DNA of 64,000 nucleotides from Roseovarius sp. A-2 (GTDB taxonomy: Bacteria > Pseudomonadota > Alphaproteobacteria > Rhodobacterales > Rhodobacteraceae). This document shows positions 37,089 to 37,172 of this stretch, in pieces. Location of the stretch: contig NZ_BDIY01000004.1 of assembly GCF_002072155.1 (NCBI RefSeq), forward strand, positions 62,001 through 126,000, in the 5' to 3' direction. Within the stretch, counting starts at the first letter, position 1. Each line of letters opens with the position of its first letter. A program made the position numbers and the translations under genes. The notes beneath the pieces are model-generated. The model was not told where the DNA came from and did not search any database. It saw only the letters and a list, made by a program, of their open reading frames with translations.

Positions 37089-37159
37089 AACAGCGGCGCT
37101 TTCGGGTCCACTCCGAAGGCTCCACCGGAGAGTGTAACGGGCCGCGCGCCCGTTTTTTT
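37089..37159 (+). ncRNA. candidate leader RNA or attenuator of rimP operon, ending in an intrinsic terminator
   Basis: The predicted leader carries a first hairpin (CTCCG and CGGAG around 37111-37130) and then a textbook terminator: stem ACGGGC (37137-37142) with GCCCGT (37148-37153), loop CGCGC, and seven T residues to 37159. Only 13 bases separate the T-run from the rimP ATG, leaving no room for another promoter. The operon must therefore read through this terminator. Confidence 0.6.
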
Positions 37160-37172
37160 GTGTCTGGATACA

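Follow-up and report, generated by a model that had tools for sequence, protein, structure and literature searches.

A conserved leader and putative transcription attenuator upstream of the rimP-nusA-ylxR-infB operon in Rhodobacteraceae

Background

The rimP-leader, as described by Naville and Gautheret (2010, PMC2965389), consists of a GGGc...gCCC stem followed by a run of U residues and lies 4-130 nt before the gene. A feedback by NusA was proposed for it, and the passages on the general type report no larger conserved element; in some Gammaproteobacteria, a second terminator further upstream, possibly accompanied by an antiterminator, was noted (PMC2965389). In E. coli, the terminators t1 and t2 precede rimP (PMC6511841), and the gammaproteobacterial rimP leader is represented in Rfam by RF01770 (PMC5955585). 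According to a review, NusA of B. subtilis is autoregulated through NusA-stimulated attenuation at a terminator in the 5' leader (PMC12288461). The leader of rimP-nusA-infB in S. agalactiae gives rise, from one start, to a short RNA and a long read-through transcript, and terminates 31 nt past that start (PMC4448216). No account of a rimP leader in Rhodobacteraceae was found in the papers searched; the passages on UdsE, UdsF and UdsG of R. sphaeroides, any of which might correspond to such a leader, give no downstream gene.

The present study deals with a window of 64,000 nucleotides from Roseovarius sp. A-2 (contig NZ_BDIY01000004.1). An initial annotation of this window had placed a promoter and a terminator immediately before rimP, and had suggested attenuation of the rimP-nusA-infB operon, feedback by NusA and possibly a separate short RNA of about 70 bases. 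We compared this locus with those of related genomes, and describe herein a conserved leader that appears to be tied to nusA or its downstream genes rather than to rimP.

Results

Anatomy of the locus

The features of the leader and the operon are as follows.

37054..37082, + strand: promoter TTGCAA-17-TATATC (-35 at 37054-37059, 17-base spacer, -10 at 37077-37082)
37089..37099, + strand: segment A (AACAGCGGCGC), the expected 5' end of the RNA (putative start), near-invariant in Rhodobacteraceae
37091..37127, + strand: 5' hairpin, variable and covarying in its upper stem and conserved at its base (fold and alignment)
37119..37128, + strand: segment B (GCTCCACCGG), 3' side of the hairpin base, conserved (alignment)
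37136..37159, + strand: intrinsic terminator AACGGGC-CGCGC-GCCCGTTTTTTT (sequence, scan, alignment and covariation)
37160..37172, + strand: spacer GTGTCTGGATACA of 13 bases, with a weak GGA ribosome-binding site (by inspection)
37173..37748, + strand: rimP
37753..39366, + strand: nusA
39344..40015, + strand: ylxR family gene
40022..42526, + strand: infB (IF-2)

The promoter hexamers lie at exactly the coordinates given in the initial annotation, and its stem-and-T-run description was equally exact: the arms ACGGGC (37137-37142) and GCCCGT (37148-37153) enclose the loop CGCGC, a run of seven T residues occupies 37153-37159, and the ATG of rimP follows 13 bases later. These 13 bases leave no room for another complete promoter in the window. 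The RNA would be expected to start at the A of AACAGCGG, at 37089, 6 bases past the -10 hexamer, and the base of the 5' hairpin carries the conserved mismatches A-C, C-A and C-U (C-A too in relatives). A same-strand gene with a weak Pfam match to Glyco_transf_25 ends upstream of the promoter, at 37038. The closest named record to the RimP of the window is that of R. tolerans (98%). Elsewhere in the window, a serC leader (RF00517) was matched at 57727-57778 (+ strand, 73.5 bits) and a tRNA-Arg (CCT) at 54743-54819 (+ strand).

A consensus scan of positions 30000-46000 lists the terminator, and terminator-like sites in this interval are not above chance (11, versus 10.1 with an sd of 3.3 in shuffles). 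The promoter, which agrees with the consensus at 8 of 12 positions, is missing from the scan of the same interval, where the threshold was 9. The fold of the window's leader as a single sequence is unremarkable (z -1.06). The consensus scans alone are at chance level; the site is taken as real because it is conserved across relatives.

Conservation in Rhodobacteraceae

The terminator was recognized by pattern in 138 of 139 rimP loci (the exception being L106), 114 of which were distinct; the core of the leader could be obtained by pattern from 113 of these (the exception being L050), and 60 cores sharing no more than 90% identity made up the alignment on which the covariance model, R1, is based. 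When R1 was searched in 149 Rhodobacteraceae genomes, one per genus, matches at E <=0.1 were found in 139, and rimP was detected in 142. Conservation of the leader and its terminator in related genomes, which the initial annotation had put forward as a check, was borne out: among the matches listed, the leader stands immediately 5' of rimP in 135 of the 142 rimP-bearing genomes, and a strong match adjoins rimP in 23 of 24 genomes of the same genus, with the window's own genome counted; the 24th (G166) has no rimP match. In the 135 genomes, the end of the modelled leader is separated from the start of the RimP match by 9-79 bases (median, 18). Above 30.0 bits, every R1 match among those listed directly precedes rimP or, in G072, nusA.

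Seven rimP-bearing genomes have no adjacent leader among the matches listed, namely G072, discussed below, and six others. Two of the six, G059 and G090, have one weak R1 match each (E 0.06 and 0.04, respectively), the placement of which is not among the matches listed. By eye, a terminator-like stretch lies upstream of rimP in all six, about 120 bases off in G017. At the locus of Litorivita pollutaquae, the terminator is more than 100 bases before rimP, far above the usual distance.

Across the class, R1 matched 22 of 240 genomes at E <=0.01. Since strong matches fall only in members of the family, three in number, the full leader is, as far as genomes were sampled, a feature of Rhodobacteraceae. 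A weak match (29.2 bits) lies just 5' of the RimP_N match in one genome outside the family (G306).

Promoter and RNA structure

Upstream sequence was readable for 135 leaders (it is masked in G032). Best-placed TTG and TA(T/A/G) hexamers precede the leader in 132 of them and the spacer measures 17 bases in 133, counts that are somewhat generous because the best placement within a small search interval was taken. The -10 hexamer is 5-8 bases away from the conserved 5' end in the 135 leaders, and in most of the family a further promoter would not fit into the gap behind the terminator.

In 100 leaders aligned to R1, both sides of a pair had changed in 146 cells, compared to 46.8 in shuffles; double changes occur at 10 of the 18 pairs of the 5' hairpin and the terminator, and 93.2% of the cells are paired. 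For 11 pairs the alignment had been fitted to the model, however, and the relatedness of the sequences inflates counts of this kind. The six upper-stem pairs, which are absent from R1, all show double changes. Covariation thus supports, at the level of aligned sequences, a family-specific 5' hairpin followed by a terminator. An ATG occurs in the first 60 nt of only 39 of 136 leaders, and a ribosome-mediated attenuator with an ATG-started leader peptide was rejected for want of a conserved leader reading frame.

Relocation to nusA in one genus

In G072, a leader that is intact (68.6 bits) and has a promoter of its own lies just upstream of nusA, and a gene for an RTX-repeat protein (L240:1163-2617) is located between rimP and nusA. 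Upstream of rimP, this genome retains the promoter together with degenerate versions of the leader and the terminator. Its sister G446, a genome 69% complete, has the leader between rimP and nusA with no inserted gene, and its rimP starts shortly after a promoter-like TTGCAA-17-TATGTG, without leader or terminator. No R1 match up to E 0.1 is left before rimP in these two, which are both of the genomes examined of their genus, and the relocation is counted as one event. A search for a terminator directly before nusA in 394 genomes of the family, a set into which G446 was not drawn, matched only G072.

Since rimP was freed of the unit and nusA-ylxR-infB kept it, the arrangement says, as far as gene order can, that the module would serve nusA or the genes behind it, and not rimP. 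The relocation does not separate nusA from ylxR-infB as the target.

Similar terminators and RNA families

In 23 of 29 genomes from outside the family, a GGGC/GCCC-type terminator lies within the 250 bases that precede the RimP_N domain, a count that is descriptive only because the pattern was written after those upstream sequences had been viewed. Two control stretches, one of up to 500 bases beyond the upstream interval and one of 500 bases on the downstream side, each showed the same pattern in 0 of 29 genomes, and shuffles gave a mean of 0.07. The 29 genomes are the best 30 of 100 RimP_N-bearing genomes, less the window's own, from 115 genomes of the class searched.

In Rfam, no family matched the leader at its gathering score. 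RF01770 is not among the Rfam matches of the window stretch up to E 10, and neither L240 nor any of 19 rimP loci from other Alphaproteobacteria matched it at the gathering score. SorX (RF02784) resembles the leader in combining a 5' hairpin with a GC-rich terminator in Rhodobacteraceae; membership in this family was rejected because the leader scores 14.8 bits, far under the cut-off of 46.6. SorX itself is derived from a 3' UTR and acts in trans. The SorX model has 10 matches at E <=1 in the window's genome, two of them, among the matches listed, over the cut-off; matches include G000:C2:67306-67377 and G000:C11:107568-107621. In the family as a whole, it matches 143 of 149 genomes, 117 of them over the cut-off, and often several times per genome.

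Discussion

A probable cis-acting attenuator with NusA as the likely controller

A conserved promoter reads into a conserved terminator, and in the window there is no space for a second promoter; for that reason, attenuation of rimP-nusA-ylxR-infB, suggested in the initial annotation for rimP-nusA-infB, is the best reading of the locus and is, on comparative grounds, strongly supported. RNA polymerase would start near 37089, make a leader of about 70 nt with its 5' hairpin, and next meet the intrinsic terminator before rimP, where some polymerases would stop and release an RNA of about 70 nt, while the remainder would read into the operon. NusA would be the most likely controller: when plentiful, it would aid the terminator hairpin and lower expression of the operon, and when scarce, it would let the polymerase through. 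We assign a probability of roughly 0.7 to a cis-acting transcription attenuator of this operon with NusA as its most likely controller.

The promoter, both hairpins and the terminator are conserved as sequence, as are their positions, and the relocation is likewise a matter of gene order. The site of the start, partial termination and the direction of control belong to the proposed mechanism. For the feedback envisaged earlier, the relocation to nusA and the published cases point to NusA, but that NusA is the effector is what we infer, and we hold it with moderate confidence, backed by the relocation together with proposals and findings published for other bacteria. Intrinsic terminators can work without NusA, which counts against the NusA step. 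The short RNA of about 70 bases suggested earlier is to be expected as the terminated product; no sign was seen of its having a gene of its own. That earlier description did not include the conserved 5' hairpin, the conservation across the family or the prior publication of the idea for other phyla.

Alternative explanations

The same module might answer another signal from the operon, such as RimP, IF-2, YlxR or free ribosomal parts. The mismatched, conserved hairpin base could be a specific recognition site, and RimP is also mentioned by Naville and Gautheret in the passages concerned (PMC2965389), but the unit was lost at rimP and kept by nusA-ylxR-infB in the genus of G072. RimP is disfavoured as the regulated product because rimP lost the unit there, and another operon signal of any of these kinds appears unlikely to us. 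Less probable again is a small trans-acting RNA, comparable to SorX or UpsM of Rhodobacter sphaeroides, whose gene happens to precede rimP. The leader has a SorX-like build, with a full-length but weak match to that model, as well as near-invariant stretches, and UpsM, which arises by partial termination in a 5' UTR, provides a precedent (PMC8625941, in its passages on UpsM). However, the strong matches, among those listed, are found in cis, next to rimP or nusA, and the unit precedes nusA in one genus. The two roles, cis attenuator and trans RNA, may coexist, and a trans role is not needed. The end of a same-strand gene so close upstream of the promoter would suit an ordinary terminator that insulates upstream genes, with rimP expressed from elsewhere; yet a conserved promoter precedes the terminator, a full promoter would mostly not fit between the terminator and rimP, and an insulator leaves the conserved 5' hairpin unexplained, so that this is the least credible of the explanations and, in our judgement, very improbable.

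A bistable switch would be a refinement of the attenuation reading and not its opposite. The 5' end of the RNA (AGCGGC) might pair, as an antiterminator, with the rising arm and loop of the terminator (GCCGC), in competition with the 5' hairpin base and the terminator, and NusA or another factor would shift the balance. When folding is confined to prefixes that stop short of the falling arm, 4 or more of these pairs are predicted in 131 of 135 leaders (G102, which has no T-run by the rule, was left out of the folds). Shuffling the first 10 bases lowers this count to 59.1 (sd 4.6), and shuffling the rising arm lowers it to 48.5 (sd 5.9). When rising arms were dealt among genomes, 0 of 2000 permutations, in which kinship is ignored, had as good a mean duplex energy, but the shared descent of the leaders makes these shuffles and permutations pseudo-replicates. 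Reversal of the 5' ten bases still leaves 111 of 135 leaders with at least 4 pairs. The energy gap to the terminator form is small enough to count in favour of a switch (median, 3.0 kcal/mol; 1.7 in the window), but full-length folds contain the terminator in 94 of 135 leaders and the switch pairing in 38. At least 4 pairs are kept by 11 of the 14 leaders that deviate in either segment, and the other three have no such pairs. One clear compensatory change was seen, in G118, the single genome covered of its genus. Covariation of the switch pairs is poor because both segments are nearly invariant, with 3 cells and 2 pairs showing double changes, values reached by 22 and 38 of 500 shuffles, respectively. 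A pattern search for further compensated 5' ends matched 172 of 394 genomes, mostly scattered, and among the matches listed no new compensated case was recognized; reversed-pattern controls look similar in size (unsummed, among the matches listed).

The pairing itself is therefore put forward tentatively. A shade less probable is the fuller proposal, in which a family-specific switch would control the supply of NusA: the 5' bases would act as antiterminator, the mismatched hairpin base would hold that strand in reserve, NusA would decide, and the module, tied to nusA, would relocate with its promoter.

Significance and comparison with known systems

The leader probably lets the cell throttle its own supply of NusA, a general transcription factor whose dosage affects termination widely. 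With the leader and its natural relocation, the proposal of NusA feedback can be put to a direct test in bacteria other than E. coli and Bacillus, among them marine and phototrophic species amenable to genetics, and the leader could be added to Rfam as a family.

While terminators at this spot are known in other bacteria, a leader specific to Rhodobacteraceae seems not to have been described before. The window has a GGGC...GCCC terminator and a U-run upstream of the rimP operon, as does the rimP-leader; unlike that general type, Rhodobacteraceae keep, family-wide, a leader of about 75 nt with an extra conserved hairpin and conserved flanks. With RF01770 it shares the operon and its presumed role as an attenuator. 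A terminator in the 5' leader is common to this locus and B. subtilis, a member of another phylum, but NusA-stimulated termination was reported there and would here be the presumed mode of action. The S. agalactiae leader likewise has its terminator near the start, whereas the passages describing it mention no conserved 5' hairpin (PMC4448216). Feedback by NusA is likely, and had been proposed for leaders of the rimP-leader kind; what the present comparison adds to these systems is the conserved Rhodobacteraceae leader of about 75 nt, the move of this leader to nusA in one genus, and a candidate RNA switch with weak support.
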